Positions 31,846-42,961 of a stretch of DNA of 64,000 nucleotides are shown here, one piece after another; position 1 is the first letter of the stretch; the number at the start of each line of letters is the position of its first letter. Source of the DNA: Clostridium sp. M62/1. Lineage in GTDB: Bacteria > Bacillota > Clostridia > Lachnospirales > Lachnospiraceae. The translations under genes were made by a program, and so were the position numbers. The stretch covers positions 1,184,001 through 1,248,000 of the forward strand of contig NZ_CP085988.1 in NCBI RefSeq assembly GCF_020736365.1. Direction: 5' to 3'. Under the pieces are notes generated by a model. The model was not told the DNA's origin, searched no databases, and worked only from the letters and a program-made list of their open reading frames with translations.

Positions 31846-31873
31846 TTGAAATTTCCGCAGGCTCGGTTATAAT
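31846..31873 (+). promoter_or_regulatory. Promoter of the SWIM/MoxR/VWA operon
   Basis: TTGAAA (31846-31851), 16 bases, TATAAT (31868-31873), 44 bases before the start codon of the SWIM gene. The SOS-type box lies immediately downstream. Confidence 0.75.
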
Positions 31874-31879
31874 AAAAAT

Positions 31880-31893
31880 AGAACAAATGTTCG
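31880..31893 (+). promoter_or_regulatory. LexA (SOS) box over the operon start site
   Basis: AGAACAAATGTTCG matches the Gram-positive LexA consensus CGAACRNRYGTTYG at 13 of 14 positions; only the first base differs. It begins 6 bases after the -10, so bound LexA would cover the start of transcription. No other GAAC-N4-GTTC site was found by eye in the window's intergenic regions. Confidence 0.78.
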
Positions 31894-31917
31894 TTTTTGC
31901 AGGGGACAGGAGGTTAT

Positions 31918-33402
31918 ATGAGAACGATCAGTGAGCAGGAGATTATCAGCCTGGCTCCCAACGGAGGAGCTGTGATGAACGGAAGGAAAATTTCGTCGGG
32001 CGGAGGCTTTGTATCCCGCATGCGCTCTGCGGACGACACCTTCTATATGGGAGAGTGCAGGGGAAGCGGAAAGTCAAATTATACGGTTTCGGCAGATTTT
32101 GTGAAGGAGGGAGCGCCTGTATTTCGATGCAGCTGTCCCAGCCGTCAGTTCCCCTGCAAGCACAGTATTGCCCTTTTGTTTGAGATAGCCTCGGGAAAGG
32201 ATTTTCCTGTGGGAGAGATTCCAGGGGATATTCTTGATAAGAGGGCAAGGCAGGAAGCCAGAGAGGAAAAAAAGGCAAAAACCCTTTCACAGGCACAGGG
32301 CGGCACAGAGAGCGGTGGGGAGAAAAAGAAAAAAACAGCCGCGAAGTCTTCCGGGGCTGCGAAGACAAGGAAGATGAAAAAGCAGCTGGAGGGACTTGCA
32401 CTGCTGAAGAAGATGACGGATCAGCTTCTTTTCTCCGGCCTTTCGTCTATGGGAAGCATCTCTCTGAAGAATTACAGGGAGCTGTCAAAGCAGCTTGGAG
32501 ACTATTATCTCCCCGGGCCGCAGAAATATCTGAATGAACTGATTCTGTGCATGGAAAAGTATCAGAAGGATTCAGACCCATCCCACTGCAGGGCGGCAGT
32601 GAAGCTTCTGATCCGGCTGCACGCCCTGGGAAAGAAGGCGGACGTTTATCTGAGGGAAAGGCTGGAAGCCGGTGCGGCAGAGGAGGACGGGAGTATCCTG
32701 TTTGAGGAGCTGGGCGGAATCTGGCGTCTGGATCAGCTGGAGGAGCTGGGACTTAAAAAGGAGAATGCGCAGCTTCTGCAGCTCTCCTTTTCCGTTCTGT
32801 ATGACGAGGCGGCCAGGGAGTACATAGATGAGGCTTTCTGGGCAGATATCGACACAGGCGAGGTGTCGGTTTCCAGAAATTATCGCCCTGTGAGAGCTCT
32901 CAGTCACATAAAGCAGGAGGACTCCTGCTTTGCAAAACTGAAGGTTCCTTCCCTGATATACTATCCCGGCGATATGAACCGGCGGATTCGGTGGGAGCAG
33001 GCCATCTTTCAGGAGGTGGAGGACAGTGACAGGAGAGGACTCATGGAGCTTGCCTGGAAGGATATTCCGTCAGCGGTAAAGCAGGTGAAGAATCAGATAA
33101 AAAATACATTGTCAGATGACTTTTGCGGGATGCTCATTGCCTTTTCTCAGATTGGCCGCGCCGGGGAGGACGGCGAATGTGTGGTGATGGAGGATGCAGC
33201 AGGCGGAAGGATCGAGCTGAGAGACCGCACCTGCAGGGGCTGGGAACCCTGTGTGCAGCAGCTTGGCCTGCTTCCCGACAGGACACTTTTAAAAAATCAG
33301 GTGATGTTTGGCCTGCTGTACTATGACGAGACAGACAGGAAGATTTGCCTGCATCCCAGAAGTATAGTCACGGAAAAGGAGATTGTAAGGCTCATGTATT
33401 AA
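31918..33402 (+). CDS. SWIM zinc finger protein, first gene of the MoxR/VWA cassette
   Basis: 494 residues from ATG 31918, just after AGGAGGT; the frame extends 7 codons upstream to a TTG with poorer context. The SWIM motif CxCx(6)CxH is at residues 71-82 (CSCPSRQFPCKH) and is expected to bind zinc and DNA or protein. A lysine- and glutamate-rich linker follows (about 100-155), then a mainly helical C-terminal region. SWIM proteins occur in nucleic-acid enzymes and in MoxR/VWA gene neighbourhoods. Directly downstream of a LexA box, it is the likely first SOS-induced product. Exact function unknown. Confidence 0.85.
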   Translation: MRTISEQEIISLAPNGGAVMNGRKISSGGGFVSRMRSADDTFYMGECRGSGKSNYTVSADFVKEGAPVFRCSCPSRQFPCKHSIALLFEIASGKDFPVGEIPGDILDKRARQEAREEKKAKTLSQAQGGTESGGEKKKKTAAKSSGAAKTRKMKKQLEGLALLKKMTDQLLFSGLSSMGSISLKNYRELSKQLGDYYLPGPQKYLNELILCMEKYQKDSDPSHCRAAVKLLIRLHALGKKADVYLRERLEAGAAEEDGSILFEELGGIWRLDQLEELGLKKENAQLLQLSFSVLYDEAAREYIDEAFWADIDTGEVSVSRNYRPVRALSHIKQEDSCFAKLKVPSLIYYPGDMNRRIRWEQAIFQEVEDSDRRGLMELAWKDIPSAVKQVKNQIKNTLSDDFCGMLIAFSQIGRAGEDGECVVMEDAAGGRIELRDRTCRGWEPCVQQLGLLPDRTLLKNQVMFGLLYYDETDRKICLHPRSIVTEKEIVRLMY

Positions 33403-33485
33403 AGAGGGGAAGCGCAGCTGAAAATTCAGGGAAGTTTTCGTGTGCTGCGGACCAGTCTGAACCGTTCAGGCAGAAAGGATAAGAT

Positions 33486-35621
33486 ATGAACTTGAGCGCA
33501 CTGTATGAATTGAAGGAACAGCTTGAGGCAGCGGCAGTTTATGGGACAGGTCTTATGACCGAGGATTTTCGCCTGAAAAAGGCGGCAGCTCAGATGGGGC
33601 CTCTGGCGCAGGCCGCTCCTGTTTTCAAAAAAATTGAACAGGCAGCCCAGGCGGCCATAGCGCCTGAGTGTCAGGACAGGCCGGGAGCGCTGATGGATGC
33701 TCTGGCACTGGTGAATGCAGTTGTATACACGCAGGGGACCGTGGGGGCGGCCGGTGAGCTTCTTCCCCTTGAGGGAGACGGCTGTGAGCAAAACAGAGTC
33801 TGTGCGGGGGAAGGGGGCAGCCTTTCAGATGAGACAGGCAGAGAGGAAAAGTCCCTAAGCTTCCTTCAGAATATTCCGTACAGCAGGATGGCTCCTCTTG
33901 TGGCAGCCCTCACGGGAACGGGAGGAGGAAGATACGCAGTGCTCGAGAGCGCTGTGCGGGAAGAGCCGGAGCTGCTTTCTGACTGGCGCCTTCTCCGTCT
34001 TATGATAGAGGCGCTGGGGGACAGCTATGGAGAGATCGGAAATCTTGTATACAGAAGGCTCCTTGAGATGGGAAGCAGTATTGTTCCCATGCTTCGCCAG
34101 GGCTTTGATTCAAATGGAAAGCGGGGCATGCTTCTGAGGCTTCGCCTCATAGGAGAGCTGGCCGGGGCCTCAGAAAATCAGCTTTACCGGAAGGCGGCCA
34201 TGGATGGAGAGAAGAGCATCAGGGAGGAGGCGATTGGGCTTCTTCGCTTTGACAGTGAAAATGTTTCTCTTCTGTACGATATGCTGAAAACAGAAAAAGG
34301 GGGAATGAGAAACCGGGTTCTCTGGACTCTGTCCTTCATGGAGCTTGAGGAACCAGAAGAATATCTGGCCGCCATGAAGAAGAAAAAGCCCTCCGAGGCT
34401 GCCGGGATCCTCTGCGGCGCCCGCAATGTCCGCTCGGCAGATTTGATGGCAGATGTCCTGGAGCAGTTCCGCAAGAGTGTGATAACAGAGATGGAGAAGG
34501 CCGGGGAGGAGTATCGCAGGACAGAATCACTGTTAGCCTCTCTCGGGAAAAACGGCACACTTGAGGACGGGACTACAGCATCCCAGCTCAGAAAGAAGAG
34601 AGATCAGCTCTGTAAACAGATGCAGTGGGACAGGCGGCAGAGCGGAAAAGACCTGAACTGGCCGGCCTGGGGAACGGATGAAGAGAAGATCTGGAGGGCA
34701 GCAGAGGGGAAGTGCTCAGATAAGCTGTTTGAATGGCTAAGGCGCGCTTATGCTGAAACGCCGGGATTTTTTCCTCCTTTCTTTTTCTATGATTCCTTCT
34801 GCGATTCCCCCACGGAGGAAATGGCTTCCTTTATTGAAAGGATGTTCCGGGAGTTTGGAGATTCAGACAGACAGAATGAGAGGCGCAGCGGGATCGAGGA
34901 GGCTGTGTTTGCCAGAGCTCTCCTTACAGAGACGGCAGAGGCCGTATACGAGAAATTCAGTCCCTGGCTGGCAGGGGGGAGAGCTTCTGCCATCCTGCAG
35001 GTATTGTGTCAAATCCAGTATTCAGAAGAGAAAAAGCAGTATGTTTTTATTAAGCAAAGCCGCGGAAAGGACAGCGGCGGCAGAACAGAGGAGCCCGTTT
35101 GCTTTGAAAATCTGGACAGGAGATGGTATGGCTGGCTTCTTCTGCCGGGGAACAGAACTTTTGTCAGAAAAAACGTGAAGGTGTACACAGGGCAGATGCC
35201 GGGGCAGGGATATGCTCTGGAGAGGGATTCGAAGGCGTCTGAATGGAGCTGCCTGGAACAGGCGCTGGTGCAGCTGTACTGTCCGGAGGCAGAGGGACTT
35301 TCCGAGGCATACAGAGCGCACTTTGAAAGCCTGATTCACATGGGGTTGGAGATTGACAGCCGGCTGCTGAGGATTCTCAGGCGATGCGGATTCAGAGATT
35401 ATGATTTCGTCGTTGAGAGAGTCCTGAGGGAAAATCAGAGCCAGTATTTATGGCGGGTGAAATGCCTGCTGGAAGAGATTCCTCTGCCTGCCAGCGAGCT
35501 TTCGGAGAGCCTTGGCCGTGCCCTTGAGAGGGACAGGAAAGGCACCATAGCCGGAAGAGAAAGAATTCAGATTTGGCGGGAGCAGCTTGCTGACGGGGCA
35601 TGCGTGGGAGAGCTGGCATAG
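33486..35621 (+). CDS. Large alpha-helical (HEAT-like) protein of the MoxR/VWA cassette
   Basis: 711 residues with no membrane segment or signal peptide. The middle shows repeated helical pairs resembling HEAT repeats (for example LRLRLIGELAGASENQLYRKAA, EKSIREEAIGLLRFDSENVSLLYDML, RNRVLWTLSFMELEEPEEYLAAM), suggesting a scaffold. Some related cassettes carry a protein called DUF5691 at this place; I cannot confirm the match. A charged coiled-coil-like part lies near residues 325-385. It starts 83 bases after the SWIM gene and probably bridges the ATPase and its targets. No catalytic motif seen. Confidence 0.7.
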   Translation: MNLSALYELKEQLEAAAVYGTGLMTEDFRLKKAAAQMGPLAQAAPVFKKIEQAAQAAIAPECQDRPGALMDALALVNAVVYTQGTVGAAGELLPLEGDGCEQNRVCAGEGGSLSDETGREEKSLSFLQNIPYSRMAPLVAALTGTGGGRYAVLESAVREEPELLSDWRLLRLMIEALGDSYGEIGNLVYRRLLEMGSSIVPMLRQGFDSNGKRGMLLRLRLIGELAGASENQLYRKAAMDGEKSIREEAIGLLRFDSENVSLLYDMLKTEKGGMRNRVLWTLSFMELEEPEEYLAAMKKKKPSEAAGILCGARNVRSADLMADVLEQFRKSVITEMEKAGEEYRRTESLLASLGKNGTLEDGTTASQLRKKRDQLCKQMQWDRRQSGKDLNWPAWGTDEEKIWRAAEGKCSDKLFEWLRRAYAETPGFFPPFFFYDSFCDSPTEEMASFIERMFREFGDSDRQNERRSGIEEAVFARALLTETAEAVYEKFSPWLAGGRASAILQVLCQIQYSEEKKQYVFIKQSRGKDSGGRTEEPVCFENLDRRWYGWLLLPGNRTFVRKNVKVYTGQMPGQGYALERDSKASEWSCLEQALVQLYCPEAEGLSEAYRAHFESLIHMGLEIDSRLLRILRRCGFRDYDFVVERVLRENQSQYLWRVKCLLEEIPLPASELSESLGRALERDRKGTIAGRERIQIWREQLADGACVGELA

Positions 35622-35687
35622 AGCCGGAAAGAGAGCCGGAAGACAGAATACAGAACACGATGATTTGAGAGAAAGGACAGGACATTT

Positions 35688-36776
35688 ATGGGGAAGGAAA
35701 ATATACAGAGGCTGCCTGCAGAAGAGCTGTTTCAAAAGGAGATCGATGCGCTGATTGCTGCAGAGAGGGAGTCTGTTCCCTCGGGATGGAGGATGTCGCC
35801 GCGCTCGGTTCTCACCTACATATGCGGCGGGAAGGCAAAAGGAGTGGAGATTACTCCCAAGTATATCGGCCACAGAAGGCTGGTGGAAATAGCCATCGCT
35901 ACCCTGGTGACGGACAGGGCTCTTCTGCTGATAGGAGATCCGGGAACTGCGAAATCCTGGCTGTCAGAGCATCTGACTGCGGCTATAAACGGGGATTCCA
36001 CCAAGGTTATCCAGGGGACGGCAGGGACCACAGAGGAACAGATCCGATATTCCTGGAACTACGCCATGCTGATTGCAGGAGGTCCCTCCAGGGAGGCTCT
36101 GATCCCAAGTCCGGTGTACCGCGCCATGGAAACGGGAACCATCGCCAGAATGGAGGAGATTTCAAGGTGCGCCTGTGAGGTACAGGATGCGCTGATCTCG
36201 ATTCTGTCGGAGAAGAGGATATCCGTACCGGAGCTGGGAATCGAGATACCGGCGAAAAAGGGGTTTTCCATTATCGCTACAGCCAACACGAGGGACAAGG
36301 GAGTCAACGATATGTCCTCAGCCTTAAAGCGCCGTTTTAATACCGTGGTCCTGCCGGCGCCTGAAAGCCTGGGTGCAGAGATGGACATCGTGCGCACCAG
36401 AGTTACCCAGCTTTCGGAAAATCTGGATCTCAATGCGGCAGTGCCTGACAGTGAGGTGGTGGAAAAGGTCTGCACCATTTTCAGGGAGCTTAGGATGGGG
36501 ATGACGCTGGACGGCAGGCAGAAGTTAAAGAGCACATCCGGCGTGCTGTCTACGGCTGAGGCAATTTCCCTGCTGGGGGGAAGTATGGCTCTGGCCGGAA
36601 GTTTTGGAGACGGAACAGTCACAGACTGCGATTTGGCTGCAGGACTGCAGGGAGCCATAGTCAAGGACGAGGACAGGGATTCCAAGGCATGGGTAGAATA
36701 TCTGGAAAATGTCATGAAGAAACGCGGTTCCCGATGGCTCGGACTTTACAGGGAGTGCAGGGAGCTGAACAGCTAG
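35688..36776 (+). CDS. MoxR-type AAA+ ATPase of the cassette
   Basis: 362 residues. Walker A GDPGTAKS is at residues 83-90, sensor-1 ATAN at 197-200 and the arginine finger in ALKRRFN at 212-218. The Walker B segment reads TIARMEEIS (151-159), with E-E in place of the usual D-E. MoxR ATPases act as chaperones that load cofactors into or remodel partner complexes, nearly always with a VWA protein, which here is encoded two genes downstream. It is a soluble protein. It starts 66 bases after the helical protein gene. Confidence 0.9.
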   Translation: MGKENIQRLPAEELFQKEIDALIAAERESVPSGWRMSPRSVLTYICGGKAKGVEITPKYIGHRRLVEIAIATLVTDRALLLIGDPGTAKSWLSEHLTAAINGDSTKVIQGTAGTTEEQIRYSWNYAMLIAGGPSREALIPSPVYRAMETGTIARMEEISRCACEVQDALISILSEKRISVPELGIEIPAKKGFSIIATANTRDKGVNDMSSALKRRFNTVVLPAPESLGAEMDIVRTRVTQLSENLDLNAAVPDSEVVEKVCTIFRELRMGMTLDGRQKLKSTSGVLSTAEAISLLGGSMALAGSFGDGTVTDCDLAAGLQGAIVKDEDRDSKAWVEYLENVMKKRGSRWLGLYRECRELNS

Positions 36777-36810
36777 CTGATCAGAGGCAGAAAGGCAGGG
36801 AGAGAAAGAC

Positions 36811-39153
36811 ATGAGAGAAGGGTTTGAGGAAAGAAAGCTGCGGCTCTGTCCGGGCGGCCCCCATCTGTTCGGAATCCGTCATCTGTCGCCTGGGGGAGCC
36901 TGGCATCTTCGGACATTTCTGGATCAGACGGATCCGGAGCTTGTGCTAATCGAAGGGCCGTCTGATTTTACCGATCTGATTGGGGAGCTGACAGACACCC
37001 AGGTGAAGCCGCCCGTAGCTGTGATGGCCTACACAACAGAGCTCCCCGTCCGGACGCTTCTCTATCCGTTTGCCGTCTATTCGCCGGAATATCAGGCGCT
37101 TCTGTGGGCCAGGGAAAATGGAAAGCAGGCCAGATTTATGGATCTGACCTCCGGCACCTTTCTGGCTCTTCAGAAGGCGAGAGAGGAACTAAGGAGTGAA
37201 GCCTCCATAGAAAAAGAACATGCGGATAAGGAAAAACGGGAGCAGGGACTCCGTATATCCGAGCTCTACGAAAAGGTCGACCGGACGGCAGGCGCAGGAG
37301 GGCAGGAGGCCTTCTGGGAGCATGTGATGGAAAACGCAGGGACGGCTGATGGCTACAGGAAGGGGGCGGCTGAATTTGGCTCCAGTCTTCGGGAGCTGTC
37401 AGAGGAGGATCCGGCTGAGCGGGCAGAAACGAATCTGAGGGAAGCGTATATGCGCCGTGAGATAGAGCGGGCTGTGAGGGAGGGGATCCCTCCTGATCGG
37501 ATTGTCGCCGTCACCGGAGCCTTCCACCTTACAGGGCTTCAGAGGACGGCTGCCATGACAGAGGAGGAGGTACAGACTCTTGCCTGTATGGAGTCCTGCA
37601 GGACACTGATGCCGTATTCCTACTTCCGGCTTTCTGAGCGAGGCGGATATGGGGCGGGAAACCGGGCACCGGCCTACTATGAGCTGCTGTGGGAGGCCAG
37701 AAAGAGGAGAGAGGGAAGCTACGGAGCCATACGCTATCTTTCCAATCTGGCGGCATTCTGCCGGAGAGAGGGAAATCCTGTCTCTTCCGCTGAGGTGATC
37801 GAGGCCCTCCGCCTGGCCGGGGCGCTGGCACAGCTGTCAGGTTACGAGAATCCGTCGCTGAGTGATCTGAAAGATGCGGCCATAGCCTGCATGGGCCATG
37901 GGAGCTATGGAGAGCTGGCAGTGGCCATGGCGGACACGGAGATCGGAACTGCAGTGGGAAGCCTGCCGGAGGGAGTGAGCCAGACCTCCATTCAGACGGA
38001 TTTTAACAGAAATATGGCGGAGCTGAAGCTGGAGCGCTACCGCTCTGTGACGGCACAGGAGCTCTCCCTGGATCTGAGGGAAAAGCTGACTGTGAAATCG
38101 GAGCGGGCTGCATTTCTGGACTTAAACCGCTCTTTTTTCCTGCACAGGCTTCGCGTCCTGGGAAACAGCTTTGTATCTCTGCAGAAAAAACGCCAGGAAG
38201 GGGCGACCTGGGCGGAGGGATGGGTTCTGAGATGGACGCCGGAATCAGAAATCCAGCTGGTGGAGGCAGTGCTCAAGGGGGATACCATCGAGCAGGCCGC
38301 TTCTCTTGAGCTGAAACAGAGGGCGGACAGGGCGGGAAGCATCGGAGCTCTTTCCAGGGTTACAGAGGAGGCATTTCTGTGCGGTATGCCGGAGGCAGTG
38401 GCCTACACTGTGTCAGCTCTGCAGGCCATGGCAGTGGATACGGCTTCTGCAGAGGAGCTGGCCTCTGCGGCCGGCAGCCTGTCTGTGGTGCTCCAGTATG
38501 GGGATATCAGGAAACTTAACAGGAAGCCGCTGATCCCAGTGCTTGCCCAGATCTTCTTAAGGCTCTGTCTGATTCTGGTGGAAGAGTGCCGGTGCGATGA
38601 CGATGCGGCTAAACGGGTGGCCGAGGCCATAAACACAGCCAACACGGTAGCTGTTTCCCATGATTTTTTGGATGGGGAGCGTCTGGATCGTGTCCTGCAG
38701 GAAATTGCCGGAAGGGATGATCTGAACACAAAACTGTCAGGCTTTGCGGCAGCCATCCTTCTTGAAAAGGGAAAAATGATGGAGGAGGAGCTTTTAAGAG
38801 AGGTGTCCAGAAGGCTCTCGCCGGGAATTCCGGCTGAGCTGGGGGCCGGGTGGTTTGAAGGGCTGTCCATGAAGAACCATTACGCCCTGATTGCAAGACT
38901 CTCCTTGTGGGAAAGCCTGAGCGGGTATCTGGATGAACTGGATGACAGGGAATTTAAGAGGGCCCTTGTGTTTCTGAGGAGAGCCTTCGCAGACTTCACC
39001 TCTGAGGAAAAAAACAGGATTGCGGAAAATCTGGGAGAAATCTGGCAGGTAAACCCGGGACAGGTGAGCGAGCTTTTAAATGAAACTCTCTCAGGTGAGG
39101 AGCAGCAGGAGCTTTTAGAGGGGCTGTCAGATTTTGACTTTGACGATATATAG
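36811..39153 (+). CDS. DUF5682-like protein of the MoxR/VWA cassette
   Basis: 780 residues, soluble. The N-terminus has the signature GIRHLSPGGAWHLRTFL (22-38) followed by ELVLIEGPSD (46-55), and later VAVTGAFHLTGL (around 230-241). This histidine/glutamate pattern resembles the TraB/ChaN/Tiki-like fold, some of whose members are metal-dependent proteases or hydrolases; that link is a guess from motif shape. The C-terminal half is helical. DUF5682 proteins typically sit beside MoxR and VWA genes, as here (34 bases after the ATPase). It may be the effector of the cassette. Confidence 0.75.
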   Translation: MREGFEERKLRLCPGGPHLFGIRHLSPGGAWHLRTFLDQTDPELVLIEGPSDFTDLIGELTDTQVKPPVAVMAYTTELPVRTLLYPFAVYSPEYQALLWARENGKQARFMDLTSGTFLALQKAREELRSEASIEKEHADKEKREQGLRISELYEKVDRTAGAGGQEAFWEHVMENAGTADGYRKGAAEFGSSLRELSEEDPAERAETNLREAYMRREIERAVREGIPPDRIVAVTGAFHLTGLQRTAAMTEEEVQTLACMESCRTLMPYSYFRLSERGGYGAGNRAPAYYELLWEARKRREGSYGAIRYLSNLAAFCRREGNPVSSAEVIEALRLAGALAQLSGYENPSLSDLKDAAIACMGHGSYGELAVAMADTEIGTAVGSLPEGVSQTSIQTDFNRNMAELKLERYRSVTAQELSLDLREKLTVKSERAAFLDLNRSFFLHRLRVLGNSFVSLQKKRQEGATWAEGWVLRWTPESEIQLVEAVLKGDTIEQAASLELKQRADRAGSIGALSRVTEEAFLCGMPEAVAYTVSALQAMAVDTASAEELASAAGSLSVVLQYGDIRKLNRKPLIPVLAQIFLRLCLILVEECRCDDDAAKRVAEAINTANTVAVSHDFLDGERLDRVLQEIAGRDDLNTKLSGFAAAILLEKGKMMEEELLREVSRRLSPGIPAELGAGWFEGLSMKNHYALIARLSLWESLSGYLDELDDREFKRALVFLRRAFADFTSEEKNRIAENLGEIWQVNPGQVSELLNETLSGEEQQELLEGLSDFDFDDI

Positions 39154-39195
39154 GACGTGAGTCTGGACAGGAGAGAGTGCAGAGGGGAGGCAGAA

Positions 39196-40395
39196 ATGGA
39201 TACGGCAGAACGCATGAAACGATGGCGCCTGATTCTTGGCGCAGAGAGCGAGGGGCAGTTTCAGACAATGGAGGGGTATGGAGGAGCCAGGCTGTCAGAG
39301 GAGCAGCTGATGATGGATCAGGCCCTTGCCGCCATATATAACAGCGCAGCCTACGGCGGATTTCAGGCTCAGGGAGGAGCCGGACAGGGAGGCGGAAAGG
39401 GACCCTCCAACCCTCAGATTACCAGGTGGCTGGGAGATGTGAGAACGCTGTTTGACCGGGAGCTTGTGAAGATTGTGCAGGGTGATGCCATGGAGCGGTG
39501 CGGTCTGAAACAGCTTCTGTTTGAGCCGGAGATACTGGAAAATCTGGAGCCGGACATGAGCCTGGCCAGCACCCTTCTGCTCTTAAAGGATCAGATCCCA
39601 AAACGCTCGAAGGACAGTGTAAGAGCATTTATAGAGAAAATTGTGGAGGAGATCAACCGGCTGCTGGAGCAGGATGTCAGGAGGGCGGTAGCATCTGCGG
39701 TCAACCGACGCCGCCATTCTCCTATCCCGTCGGCCTCTGCCATGGATTTTCAGAGGACGATCCAGAGAGGGCTTAGAAACTACAGGCCGGAGGTGAAAAA
39801 GATCATCCCCGAGCATTTTTATTTCTTTGACCGCACCAGCAGGACAGCGGCCAACAGGCATACGGTTATTCTGGATGTGGATCAGAGCGGTTCCATGGGA
39901 GAGTCGGTTATCTATTCTTCGGTTATGAGCTGCATTCTGGCCAGCATGGCGGCTTTAGAGACAAGAATCGTGGCCTTTGACACAAATGTGGTAGATTTAA
40001 CGGAAAAATGCAGTGACCCGGTGGATCTGCTGTTCGGATTCCAGCTGGGAGGAGGAACAGATATTGACCGCTCAGTAGCGTACTGCGAGAAATTCATCGA
40101 GAATCCGTCTAAGACCCTGTTTTTTCTGATTTCAGATTTAGAGGAAGGGGGAAACCGGGCCTCCCTTCTGAGACGTCTCGCCTCCCTTCGGGAGTCGGGT
40201 GTATCGGTAATCTGTCTGCTGGCCATTGCCGACAAGGGAAAGCCCTACTACGATGCCCAGATGGCAGGCCGCATCGCCTCCCTGGGAATCCCCTGCTTTG
40301 CCTGCGCCCCGGAAAAGCTCCCGGCCCTCCTGGAGCGAGCCCTGAAAGGGCAGGACCTCACCATCTTTGAAAAAGAGATTTCAGGAAGTTCATAA
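39196..40395 (+). CDS. VWA domain protein of the MoxR cassette
   Basis: 399 residues from ATG 39196 behind GGGGAGG; an in-frame GTG at 39157 is less likely. The C-terminal von Willebrand A domain (about 221-399) has a complete MIDAS metal site: DxSxS at 229-233 (DQSGSMG), T288 in GGGTDI and D314 in SDLEEGG. The N-terminal half is helical with a glycine-rich stretch near 59-69. Such proteins work as the substrate-binding partner of MoxR ATPases. It ends the five-gene operon. Confidence 0.88.
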   Translation: MDTAERMKRWRLILGAESEGQFQTMEGYGGARLSEEQLMMDQALAAIYNSAAYGGFQAQGGAGQGGGKGPSNPQITRWLGDVRTLFDRELVKIVQGDAMERCGLKQLLFEPEILENLEPDMSLASTLLLLKDQIPKRSKDSVRAFIEKIVEEINRLLEQDVRRAVASAVNRRRHSPIPSASAMDFQRTIQRGLRNYRPEVKKIIPEHFYFFDRTSRTAANRHTVILDVDQSGSMGESVIYSSVMSCILASMAALETRIVAFDTNVVDLTEKCSDPVDLLFGFQLGGGTDIDRSVAYCEKFIENPSKTLFFLISDLEEGGNRASLLRRLASLRESGVSVICLLAIADKGKPYYDAQMAGRIASLGIPCFACAPEKLPALLERALKGQDLTIFEKEISGSS

Positions 40396-40447: not shown

Positions 40448-40645
40448 TTAACAGAACCATGGGGGTATGGTATAATAACCGCGGAGCGGTTATTATACCT
40501 GCGCATACCGGTTTCAGCATGTACTGCTGAAATCCGGGCGCTAAATTCCGCCGGAGGCTGCCGTATCCGAAGGATATGGTATAATAACTGCGGGAAAGCA
40601 AAGCGCAGTTTACCCGTATAAAGCCTGCAGGACGCGCAAGCAGGC
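40448..40645 (+). promoter_or_regulatory. Structured control element with duplicated promoter motif before the restriction-modification genes
   Basis: A promoter TTAACA (40448-40453), 17 bases, TATAAT (40471-40476) is built into a perfect 14-bp inverted repeat GGTATAATAACCGC GGA GCGGTTATTATACC (40469-40499). The motif TATGGTATAATAACYGCGG, with an extended -10, recurs 109 bp later (40466 and 40575), the second copy leading into AACTGCG-N11-CGCAGTT (40586-40610). Further stems: TTTCAGCA TGTAC TGCTGAAA near 40512 and GCCTGC ... GCAGGC near 40623. It likely sets methylase timing or is a dispersed repeat. No gene is seen in this 300-base spacer. Confidence 0.65.
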
Positions 40646-40695: not shown

Positions 40696-41622
40696 ATGAC
40701 ATCATCACATACATCCTTAACAGCATCATCAACACAGCCGCACCACCCATCTGTGTGCGGAAACTCCCATGTACAGAAACGGGGGACTGCCCGGCAGCAG
40801 GAGGTTGCGCCTATCCTCAAATGGGTAGGAGGAAAGCGGCAGCTTCTGGAATCCATTGTGCCGCTGATTCCGGAGTATACCACTTATTATGAGCCCTTTG
40901 TGGGAGGAGGTGCAGTCCTGTTTGCCACTCAGCCCAAAAAGGCAGTGATCAATGACTCCAATGCCGAGCTGATCAATGTCTATGAGACTGTGAAAAACCA
41001 GCCGGAAGAGCTGATCAGCCTTCTGGAACAGCACAGAGAGGCAAACTGTCAGGAGTACTTTTACCAAATCCGTGCTCTTGACCGGGAGCCGGAAGCCTAC
41101 GGACAGCTGACGCCTGTGGAGAGAGCTGCCAGGATCATCTATCTGAATAAAACCTGCTATAACGGTCTCTTTCGTGTCAACAGCTCCGGCCAGTTCAACG
41201 CGCCCTGGGGGCGTTACAAAAACCCGAATATCTCAGGGGCGGACAACATCCGGGCTATGAGCGCCTACCTGAACCGGGCCAGGGTGACAATCAAATGCGG
41301 AGACTACAGGGAAGCCCTGAAGGGGATCCGAAAGGGAGCCTTTGTCTACTTCGACCCGCCTTATATGCCCCTCAGCTTATCCTCCTCCTTTACCGGCTAC
41401 ACGGCGAGCGGGTTCGGCGAGGCAGAGCAGATTGAGCTGAAGCGCCAGTGCGACCTCCTGGATAAAAGAGGAATCAAATTTCTGCTCTCCAATTCCTGCT
41501 GTGAATTTATAGAAAACCTTTACAGCGGCTATACCATAGAGCGTGTTTCAGCCAAGCGGGCTATCAATGCAAAGGCAGATAAGCGGGGAGCCATCGACGA
41601 GGTTCTGGTGAGAAATTACTGA
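40696..41622 (+). CDS. DNA adenine methyltransferase, Dam/D12 class (alpha group)
   Basis: 308 residues. Motif order fits the alpha group of N6-adenine methylases: PILKWVGGKRQLL (39-51), the SAM-binding FVGGGAVLF (68-76), and catalytic DPPY at 220-223 (FDPPYMPLS). Relatives include Dam and the MboI/DpnII methylases that modify GATC; the site cannot be read from sequence. The first 37 residues are an unusual S/T/H-rich extension before the conserved start; no better internal start was found. The restriction gene follows 43 bases later. Confidence 0.9.
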   Translation: MTSSHTSLTASSTQPHHPSVCGNSHVQKRGTARQQEVAPILKWVGGKRQLLESIVPLIPEYTTYYEPFVGGGAVLFATQPKKAVINDSNAELINVYETVKNQPEELISLLEQHREANCQEYFYQIRALDREPEAYGQLTPVERAARIIYLNKTCYNGLFRVNSSGQFNAPWGRYKNPNISGADNIRAMSAYLNRARVTIKCGDYREALKGIRKGAFVYFDPPYMPLSLSSSFTGYTASGFGEAEQIELKRQCDLLDKRGIKFLLSNSCCEFIENLYSGYTIERVSAKRAINAKADKRGAIDEVLVRNY

Positions 41623-41665
41623 TCCGTAAGATTGCCGGACGCATCTTCAGAACGAGGGAGGAACT

Positions 41666-42961
41666 GTGGGAATCATTGAGGAAAAATGGGAGGCTCTGTT
41701 TGAAAAATACAGAATCAGGGAGGAAGTGGACGCGCACGGCTGCTTCTCGATTACAGCCGATCAGATCCGGGAGTTTAAGGAACCGCGTCTCATGACAAAA
41801 TTTGACACCCGGGAATCCCTACCGAAGGTTTTTGGAAGACTGGGAATTCTCCCGGTGACCAGGGGAAAATACGTGATCGGAGACTTCAGACTCTATGAGG
41901 ACTTTCCGGAGTTCTCCCCGGAGTCTGCCGGAGGGATAAAGCGGGCAGACAGTTCCCTGATACCGGATTATCTGGAAACCATCGATATAAAGGACGTGCG
42001 CTCAGAGGCAGCGGCCATCCGTCTGATGGGGTTCGCAGGGATCCTGGAGGATTTTCTCGGAGAGAAAAGAATGATTGAAACAGTGTCCGGCAGGATGGCA
42101 TCCGGCGTGTTTTCCTTTCAGATTCACTCAGAGGACAGGAAACGGCTGTCAGCCATTGAGGTGAACAATTCCCAGGTGGAAATTGACGGCGGATTCGAGG
42201 GCCGCAGCTGTTTTTCCATCATAGAAGGAAAAAATGTAGTGCACAGCAACTTTCTGGTGCGCCAGCTCTATTACCCCTTTCGCCTGTGGAGGGAAAAGAT
42301 CAGAAAACCGATCCGTCCGGTGTTCCTGGTCTACTCCAACAATATCTTCCGGCTTCTGGAGTATGAATTCACCGACTGGCAGCTCTACGACTCGCCGCGG
42401 CTGATACAGGAAAAATATTATAGCTTTGAGGACACGGCGATCCGGCTGGAGGAGCTGGCTGAGGTGTGGCGCGAGACAAAGGTTCTCCCTGAGCCTGAGG
42501 GGATTCCCTTTATACAGGCAGACAGCTTTGACAAGGTCATTTCCCTGACTGAGCATCTGAACCGTCATCCCCTGACCTCACAGGAGATTGCAGAGGTGTT
42601 CGGATTCCGGGAGAGACAGTCCGGCTATTACTACAATGCCTGCGCCTATCTGGGACTGGCGTGCAGAAAAAAGCCGGCCGGGGCACAGAAAGGACCTGTG
42701 CGCATCGGGATTACTCCGGCTGGAAGGCGCCTGCTGTCCCTTTCCTACCGGGAGAGGCAGCTTGGCTATGTAAAACGGATTCTGGAGCATGAGATTTTCC
42801 ATGAGCTTTTTGGGATTTTCCTGAGTACCGGAACGATACCTGATAAGAAATACATCGAAAAAAGAATGATGGCCATGGGCCTCTGCACAGAGAGCCTGGC
42901 AGGCCGCAGGGCCTCATCGGTAGCAGGCTGGCTCAGATGGATCAAACACCTTACGGACTGA
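41666..42961 (+). CDS. Type II restriction endonuclease, PD-(D/E)XK type
   Basis: 431 residues starting at GTG 41666 after AGGGAGG. Around residues 165-190 (AIEVNNSQVEIDGGFE ... FSIIEGKN) it shows the nuclease pattern with D174 and E187-x-K189. The C-terminal third looks like a winged helix (LTSQEIAEVFGFRERQSGYYYNA ... ITPAGRRLL), fit for target recognition. Placement directly after an adenine methylase supports a restriction role. I do not recognise a close named enzyme, so specificity is open. Confidence 0.78.
   Translation: MGIIEEKWEALFEKYRIREEVDAHGCFSITADQIREFKEPRLMTKFDTRESLPKVFGRLGILPVTRGKYVIGDFRLYEDFPEFSPESAGGIKRADSSLIPDYLETIDIKDVRSEAAAIRLMGFAGILEDFLGEKRMIETVSGRMASGVFSFQIHSEDRKRLSAIEVNNSQVEIDGGFEGRSCFSIIEGKNVVHSNFLVRQLYYPFRLWREKIRKPIRPVFLVYSNNIFRLLEYEFTDWQLYDSPRLIQEKYYSFEDTAIRLEELAEVWRETKVLPEPEGIPFIQADSFDKVISLTEHLNRHPLTSQEIAEVFGFRERQSGYYYNACAYLGLACRKKPAGAQKGPVRIGITPAGRRLLSLSYRERQLGYVKRILEHEIFHELFGIFLSTGTIPDKKYIEKRMMAMGLCTESLAGRRASSVAGWLRWIKHLTD

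Follow-up and report, generated by a model that had tools for sequence, protein, structure and literature searches.

What function is served by an operon that combines a SWIM zinc-finger protein, a HEAT-repeat protein, a MoxR ATPase, a DUF5682 protein and a VWA protein? Such an operon lies in a 64,000-nucleotide stretch of the Clostridium sp. M62/1 genome (contig NZ_CP085988.1, positions 1,184,001 to 1,248,000; hereafter the window), and an initial annotation made from the sequence alone had read it as a probable conflict or repair system. We propose tentatively, as a possibility somewhat short of an even chance, that the five proteins form one machine in which a MoxR-VWA motor drives a Tiki-type DUF5682 hydrolase, the SWIM and HEAT proteins provide the targeting, and synthesis takes place under LexA in the SOS response. 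The listing of open reading frames and the Pfam matches place the five genes consecutively on the plus strand, as an operon. With ATG starts the intergenic gaps are 83, 66, 34 and 42 bases, which confirms the gaps of 34 to 83 bases given initially. The shared promoter postulated there corresponds to a strong match upstream, by consensus alone; the whole scan returned 11 promoter-like sites against 4.8 expected.

The DUF5682 protein, encoded by a single gene copy in this genome, matches the Pfam family DUF5682 with an E-value of 9e-149. In the predicted structure, its N-terminal domain adopts the alpha/beta core fold of the Tiki superfamily (ChaN/EreA/Tiki), as judged by fold comparison; by profile search the assignment to this superfamily (ChaN/EreA/TraB-like) is weak. 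Residues H24, E48, R210 and H239 are invariant in 67 of 67 DUF5682 sequences and in 12 of 12 diverse sequences. They supply a His-Glu pair, a second His and a basic residue, assigned by order, strand ends and spacing and not by residue-level superposition. The GIRH and IEGP motifs that had been singled out initially are present, the latter as LIEGP; H24 and E48 are invariant and the remaining LIEGP positions are not. GxxH motifs without a preceding Glu occur in Tiki/TraB proteins. A set of two His and two Glu is described as common to RRSP and other Tiki enzymes (PMC6254334; here and below, cited papers are represented by excerpts). The second Glu of that set, two residues before the first His, is not found in DUF5682, where position 22 is Ile in 41 and Val in 26 of the 67 sequences. 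In the structural model, the domain is a member of the Tiki superfamily by fold and not of the RRSP/Ere catalytic set. Protease activity is only putative, because Tiki-fold relatives also include esterases and haem binders (EreC, ChaN).

The partner proteins carry intact motifs. The SWIM protein scores above the Pfam cut-off for PF04434 (22.8 against 19.6 bits), and the four ligands of its CxCxnCxH zinc finger (C78, C80, C87 and H89) are invariant in 57 of 57 sequences. The MoxR protein matches AAA_5 (E 7e-38), and its P-loop GxPGTAKS, N200 and R215/R216 are invariant in 56 loci including the window. The same holds for the metal-ion-dependent adhesion site (MIDAS; D242-x-S244-x-S246, T301 and D327) of the VWA protein, which matches VWA_CoxE (E 4e-44) and whose VWA domain spans residues 171-390 of 412 with no further domain in Pfam. 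The intact SWIM motif, the MoxR Walker A and sensor motifs and the complete MIDAS reported in the initial annotation are all upheld.

Gene fusions link these proteins further. Among 12 Planctomycetota genomes examined, two encode DUF5682 and VWA in one frame without stops. One fusion (L178) comprises 1273 amino acids (aa) and matches DUF5682 profile positions 6-517 strongly, the other (L183) comprises 1131 aa, and both retain equivalents of H24, E48, R210 and H239. Such fusions would tie the enzyme to the chaperone. In Hymenobacter, SWIM and DUF5691 form a single 1009-aa polypeptide (SWIM part 3-223, DUF5691 499-1000). Together the two kinds of fusion suggest two sub-complexes, one of motor and enzyme and one of SWIM and helical-repeat protein. 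The earlier idea that MoxR-VWA acts with the DUF5682 protein as its effector is supported by conserved adjacency, the two DUF5682-VWA fusions and the Tiki-type domain.

In the proposed machine, MoxR, a hexameric AAA+ ATPase, and the VWA protein would form a motor-plus-arm pair that would remodel, open, load or activate the DUF5682 protein, most likely working as NorQD does. The DUF5682 protein would be a hydrolase, perhaps a protease, with the His-Glu pair, the second His and the Arg in its active site. Targeting would fall to a second part, made up of the SWIM and HEAT proteins, which would direct the machine to a substrate that may consist of DNA-bound or damaged complexes, and transcription of the operon under LexA in this genome would lead to its production during the SOS response. 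Computation shows the operon and its conservation, the Tiki fold with its invariant residues, both kinds of fusion, and a promoter box that matches the recA box of the genome; that the proteins assemble, that the enzyme hydrolyses a substrate, what this substrate is, that LexA controls the operon and that SWIM and HEAT act as adaptors are points that we infer.

A scan of species genomes returned at least 585 relatives of the DUF5682 protein. The 80 closest were kept, mostly from Bacillota (a survey bias): Lachnospiraceae, Oscillospiraceae, other Clostridia and Paenibacillus predominate, with one Planctomycetota and one Verrucomicrobiia bin. All five genes lie on one strand in 62 of the 63 loci with enough flank, in the order of the window in 61 (not counting inserted genes or extra HEAT copies in tandem) and in one with the places of HEAT and SWIM exchanged; the remaining locus, L060, yielded MoxR and DUF5682 only. 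The five-gene arrangement is far beyond chance. The same five genes occur in Fusobacterium (L098). Other phyla show a second architecture, in which the MoxR-DUF5682-VWA core and a SWIM protein are accompanied by a different large partner, namely DUF5691 in Deinococcus, Hymenobacter and Rhizobium, a WGR-DUF4132 protein in Sinorhizobium, and DUF4132 (YehI) in E. coli. Nonomuraea (L096) has the core and a SWIM protein. In 17 further operon stretches (5 taken from relatives of the window genome, the other 12 from among the 18 Planctomycetota over the cut-off), VWA is present in 17 and MoxR in 16, the seventeenth running off its contig; SWIM is recognised by homology in 12, as a CxCxnCxH candidate only in 3, and in neither way in 2. 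The gene set is found in Bacillota, Pseudomonadota, Bacteroidota, Deinococcota, Actinomycetota, Fusobacteriota and Planctomycetota, and the recurrence across distant bacteria that had been noted initially is supported.

Near the window, prevalence is low and patchy. In its phylum 5 of 299 genomes exceed the cut-off; 8 of 61 relatives (own genome included) are positive, as are 2 of 7 congeners, and the congener operon inspected (L121) shows the second architecture. Planctomycetota reach 18 of 149 genomes, centre genome included. DUF5682 relatives are carried by 36 of 72,556 plasmid records and by 1 of 50,697 phage records. The phage record (MT835988.1, 10530-12761), 14 kb long and labelled Bacteriophage sp., holds a DUF5682 gene 55% identical to that of the window and is possibly a mis-binned bacterial contig. 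At some loci, other genes stand between DUF5682 and VWA. An HSDR_N_2 gene (type I restriction R-subunit N-terminal domain) is inserted there at L037:13403-14752 and L040:4327-5529, and L062:3499-6836 has in this place, on the same strand, genes for an RtcB RNA ligase, for a protein with ankyrin repeats and for an unknown product of 466 aa, which hints at a link to RNA repair.

The HEAT protein is the least conserved of the five, with a mean pairwise identity over 56 loci of 27%, against 45% for SWIM, 54% for DUF5682, 63% for VWA and 75% for MoxR. It matched none of the Pfam families, but a profile of its family detects HEAT-repeat proteins of artificial design (alphaRep), at best with an E-value of 4e-19. 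In blocks of 50 residues, conservation scores are 22-51% up to residue 300 and 6-18% after it, a pattern suggestive of an adaptor in which a docking region is fixed and the rest varies. Full tandem copies, two to four each, were found in 7 of the 80 loci, and an eighth (L066) has a fragment; the operon at L056:1175-8911 contains four full-length tandem HEAT genes. Copies from one locus frequently cluster with copies from another, which indicates that some tandem paralogues are old and have been differently retained. For 34 of 61 loci, the HEAT tree and the DUF5682 tree give the same nearest neighbour. The ratio of nonsynonymous to synonymous substitution rates (dN/dS) was taken from the first copy where a locus has more than one, and dS is saturated in several pairs; the ratio lies between 0.07 and 0.17 for 9 of the 11 pairs. 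It is 0.61 and 0.71 in the pairs L052/L059 and L047/L072, where the raised HEAT dS fits the retention of different tandem paralogues. The HEAT protein is under purifying selection by this measure, and an arms race with diversifying selection was rejected despite the lowest conservation. Identity of the HEAT protein with DUF5691 was also rejected: the profile-comparison probability was 0.5 percent with only three DUF5691 sequences, and homology was not detectable.

A 12-base box, GAACAAATGTTC, between the -10 element and the start codon provides the link to LexA. It was recognised on reading, on the basis of the Gram-positive LexA consensus and before any test, so that the test of the box is post hoc. 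The pattern GAACN4GTTC has 37 sites in the 3.92-Mb genome and the reversed pattern 67; from the genome count, about 0.0004 sites are expected in the 44 bases between the -10 element and the start codon. Four sites, including the operon box, have an AWWT core, a grouping made after the list had been viewed. One AWWT-core box ends 13 bases before the recA open frame and is the same 12-mer as GAACAAATGTTC on the opposite strand, which indicates that GAACAAATGTTC is of this genome's own LexA type. Two further GAACN4GTTC sites precede lexA. Two GAACATATGTTC boxes (L147:2452-2520, own genome), which complete the four AWWT-core sites, lie in the first 55 codons of a TIGR03916 frame that is followed by a TIGR03915 repair gene; they probably precede the true start, since the TIGR03916 DNA-repair domain begins at residue 90. 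By sequence match, then, the operon promoter carries a putative LexA site of this genome's regulon. Elsewhere in the same genome, a GAACTTATGTTC box (L149:1940-1951) ends 63 bases ahead of a gene with a likeness, below the family cut-off, to a portion of ComEC/Rec2, and may mark another SOS gene.

Several results weigh against LexA control as part of the machine in general. The exact box occurs in the roughly 300 bases upstream of only 3 of 64 operons (the window, L070 and L085), with a background of 0.15% in random sequence windows and 0.4% in shuffled upstream regions. With one mismatch allowed there is no excess of boxes upstream of the operons, and the box was found in 0 of the 13 tested among the 17 further operons. 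The Bacillus subtilis-type consensus is matched in 2 of 64 upstream regions, against 0.2%. An SOS box as a general feature of the operon family was therefore rejected as not conserved (other operator types were tried in 7 loci only). In E. coli, a CTGN10CAG box, not outstanding by simple match count, ends 9 bases before yehF, which we take to be part of the former molR. The gene molR, directly upstream of yehI-yehQ, is listed as LexA-regulated (PMC11039860, PMC4576408, PMC3978071). Depletion of the damage-response repressor DdrO in Deinococcus radiodurans strongly raises the expression of one DUF4132 gene and one WGR gene (PMC8533742); these belong to the partner families of the second architecture and not to the core itself. 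The best reading is that the machine is linked to DNA damage in some lineages only. The link to DNA or damaged substrates drawn in the initial annotation is possible, from the LexA-type box and from molR, and the rarity of the box among the operons counts against it.

The closest relatives in a laboratory organism are the E. coli yeh genes. YehL is 38% identical to the window MoxR over 359 aa, YehP 34% identical to the VWA protein over 382, and YehM 27% identical to the DUF5682 protein at full length. With its VWA_CoxE neighbour, the window MoxR falls into the YehL subfamily by pairwise comparison, not by a tree of all MoxR subfamilies. A SWIM protein, YehQ, is also present, its gene placed last; aligned pairwise with the SWIM protein of the window, it showed no convincing similarity. 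Upstream, WGR and DUF4132 genes stand where the window has the HEAT gene. A yehM match was found in 5284 of 5426 E. coli genomes, covering at least 80% of the gene in 5166, and yehM is near-core in this species. The cluster was removed from the genome-reduced strain DGF-298 (PMC10652928) and is therefore dispensable there. YehL gives its name to one of seven MoxR subfamilies, and E. coli K-12 has two MoxR ATPases, YehL and the extensively characterised RavA (PMC3893208). Among the literature matches listed, no publication on the function of yehL-yehM-yehP-yehQ was apparent, nothing relevant on MadB/MadC with MoxR and metal was seen, and neither a placement of DUF5682 in the Tiki superfamily nor the fusions nor the LexA-type box came up; for DUF5682 no literature was found in a search outside of which most subscription journals lie. 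The gene set is already known as the uncharacterised yehLMPQ; judged by the listed matches, the Tiki assignment, the fusions and the LexA-type box appear to be new. The initial annotation stands in part; it was made without the yehLMPQ kinship, the Tiki fold, the LexA-type box and the tandem helical copies.

The conflict system of the initial annotation, in which MoxR-VWA would restrain the DUF5682 hydrolase until HEAT and SWIM sensors detect a phage or other element, is in our view unlikely. In its favour, MoxR-VWA ternary conflict systems are on record (PMC7159879), occurrence near the window is patchy, the helical gene evolves fastest and is sometimes tandemly repeated, and a restriction-modification pair adjoins the operon. 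That pair (40696-42961, immediately downstream) consists of a Dam-family adenine methyltransferase and a predicted type II restriction enzyme (PADLOC REase_II, DUF6996/DUF6997/DUF7226); homologues of this pair were absent from the 88 other loci searched, and it was rejected as a part of the system. The best PADLOC match of the five proteins has an E-value of 0.0017, in a comparison with listed defence families only, which a new system would escape. Pfam revealed no VMAP, iSTAND, FtsH or vWA-fused effector in them. PADLOC (E up to 1e-15) was also applied to the nearest neighbours of those loci whose outer gene had been located, 61 on the upstream and 69 on the downstream side (125 of these 130, after removal of 5 proteins with at least 900 aa), and to 125 of 230 control frames from 15 stretches of 6 genomes. 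No excess of defence families is visible among the neighbours (first 25 of 35 and 31 families, proteins not totalled), and the reading as a defence island was rejected. Ordinary families lead among the neighbours, namely response regulators, aldo-keto reductases, Clp-type ATPases, thioesterases and YebC; a five-member PDC-M37B/DolB group, equal in number to the five Clp-type AAA proteins in Pfam, was read as a false positive. Near-core status in E. coli, scarcity on plasmids and phages, and the low dN/dS of most HEAT pairs, the two high values likely reflecting different paralogues, also speak against a conflict system.

It is rather unlikely that MoxR-VWA is instead a maturation chaperone, inserting metal into or folding a client DUF5682 enzyme whose metabolic or stress job is unrelated to DNA, as in iron insertion by NorQ-NorD. 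Studied MoxR-VWA pairs do mature or activate client enzymes (NorQD, PMC13036017), Tiki itself is metal-ion dependent (PMC6254334), and a near-core gene set under purifying selection suits such a role. RRSP, however, is active without metal, in EreB and Bcr136 the metal is structural and not needed for activity (PMC6254334), and the SWIM protein, the large helical-repeat partner and the LexA links are left unexplained. We consider it very unlikely that the operon encodes general protein quality control, an ATP-driven protease clearing damaged proteins through SWIM and HEAT adaptors without a DNA connection. Although Tiki-superfamily proteases are known (RRSP, Tiki; PMC6254334), jumbo phages have a MoxR-vWA pair with a vWA-fused metallopeptidase (PMC7824862), and DUF5682-VWA fusions exist, a connection to DNA is suggested by the partners of SWIM and WGR type and by the LexA-type box, and the other activities of Tiki-fold proteins leave proteolysis putative.

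The features of the operon are collected in the table. Between the VWA and methyltransferase genes, at 40508-40535, lies the 28-base core of a dispersed repeat with inverted parts; it has 24 genomic copies (up to 3 mismatches), three of them less than 1 kb upstream of recA.

Features of the five-gene operon, with positions in the window.
Feature	Position	Strand	Remarks
Sigma-70-like promoter TTGAAA-16-TATAAT	31846..31873	+	11/12 matches; consensus match only
LexA/SOS-type box GAACAAATGTTC	31881..31892	.	between -10 and start codon; reverse complement is the recA box of the same genome
SWIM zinc-finger protein	31918..33402	+	frame open from TTG 31897; ATG 31918 the likely start because of AGGAGG upstream at 31908-31913; CxCx6CxH at 32128-32163
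HEAT-repeat protein	33486..35621	+	N-terminal residues ~1-300 more conserved, C-terminal part variable
MoxR AAA+ ATPase, YehL-like	35688..36776	+	P-loop at 35934-35957
DUF5682 protein, YehM-like	36811..39153	+	Tiki-superfamily domain and C-terminal helical solenoid
Tiki/ChaN/EreA-like domain, residues 12-300	36844..37710	+	structure model, fold comparison, profile matches, residue invariance
Tiki-domain residues	H24 36880-36882, E48 36952-36954, R210 37438-37440, H239 37525-37527	+	
HEAT-like C-terminal solenoid of DUF5682, residues ~480-770	38248..39120	+	model and fold matches; common fold
VWA_CoxE protein, YehP-like	39196..40395	+	frame open from GTG 39157; ATG 39196 the more likely start; MIDAS DxSxS at 39880-39894

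The machine proposed here, if real, would add a new type of catalytic partner for MoxR-VWA machines. If DUF5682 is the enzyme of YehL and DNA damage is its occasion, the function of the gene set is testable in a laboratory strain with knock-outs and point mutants. A broader generalisation, which we rate as improbable, is that of a new type of ATP-dependent proteolysis or hydrolysis machine, in which MoxR-VWA would feed or switch a Tiki-superfamily hydrolase, SWIM and interchangeable, sometimes tandem helical proteins would act as adaptors, and recruitment to the damage response would have occurred independently in several lineages.

Among known systems, the MoxR-vWA ternary conflict systems (Kaur et al. 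2020, PMC7159879) likewise combine MoxR, vWA and a third component with the same operon logic. In those systems VMAP, iSTAND or FtsH takes the third place and effectors are often vWA-fused, whereas in the window this place is filled by a Tiki-type domain that carries a solenoid; against their bpMoxR family, which has a cut-off of 27 bits, the window MoxR reaches 26.1. NorQ-NorD shares with the window a MoxR-like AAA+ protein and a VWA partner. In NorQD a finger of the VWA protein reaches into the pore of the AAA+ protein, and the VWA partner is twisted as ATP is turned over, which offers a possible mechanical model with the twisting of a linker; the client is nitric oxide reductase, and the excerpts mention no SWIM, HEAT or DUF5682 partners (PMC13036017). 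With the Tiki/ChaN/EreA hydrolases, DUF5682 has in common the parallel beta-sheet core, and compared with RRSP its His-Glu pair, second His and Arg follow in matching order with equal Arg-His spacing (PMC6254334). It differs from these hydrolases in lacking the first Glu of the 2His/2Glu set, in its long C-terminal solenoid and in the AAA+/VWA pair alongside. Finally, in the jumbo-phage MoxR-vWA pair a hydrolase, described only as a metallopeptidase with a suggested role in virion assembly, is joined directly to the vWA partner, in parallel to the DUF5682-VWA fusions (PMC7824862).

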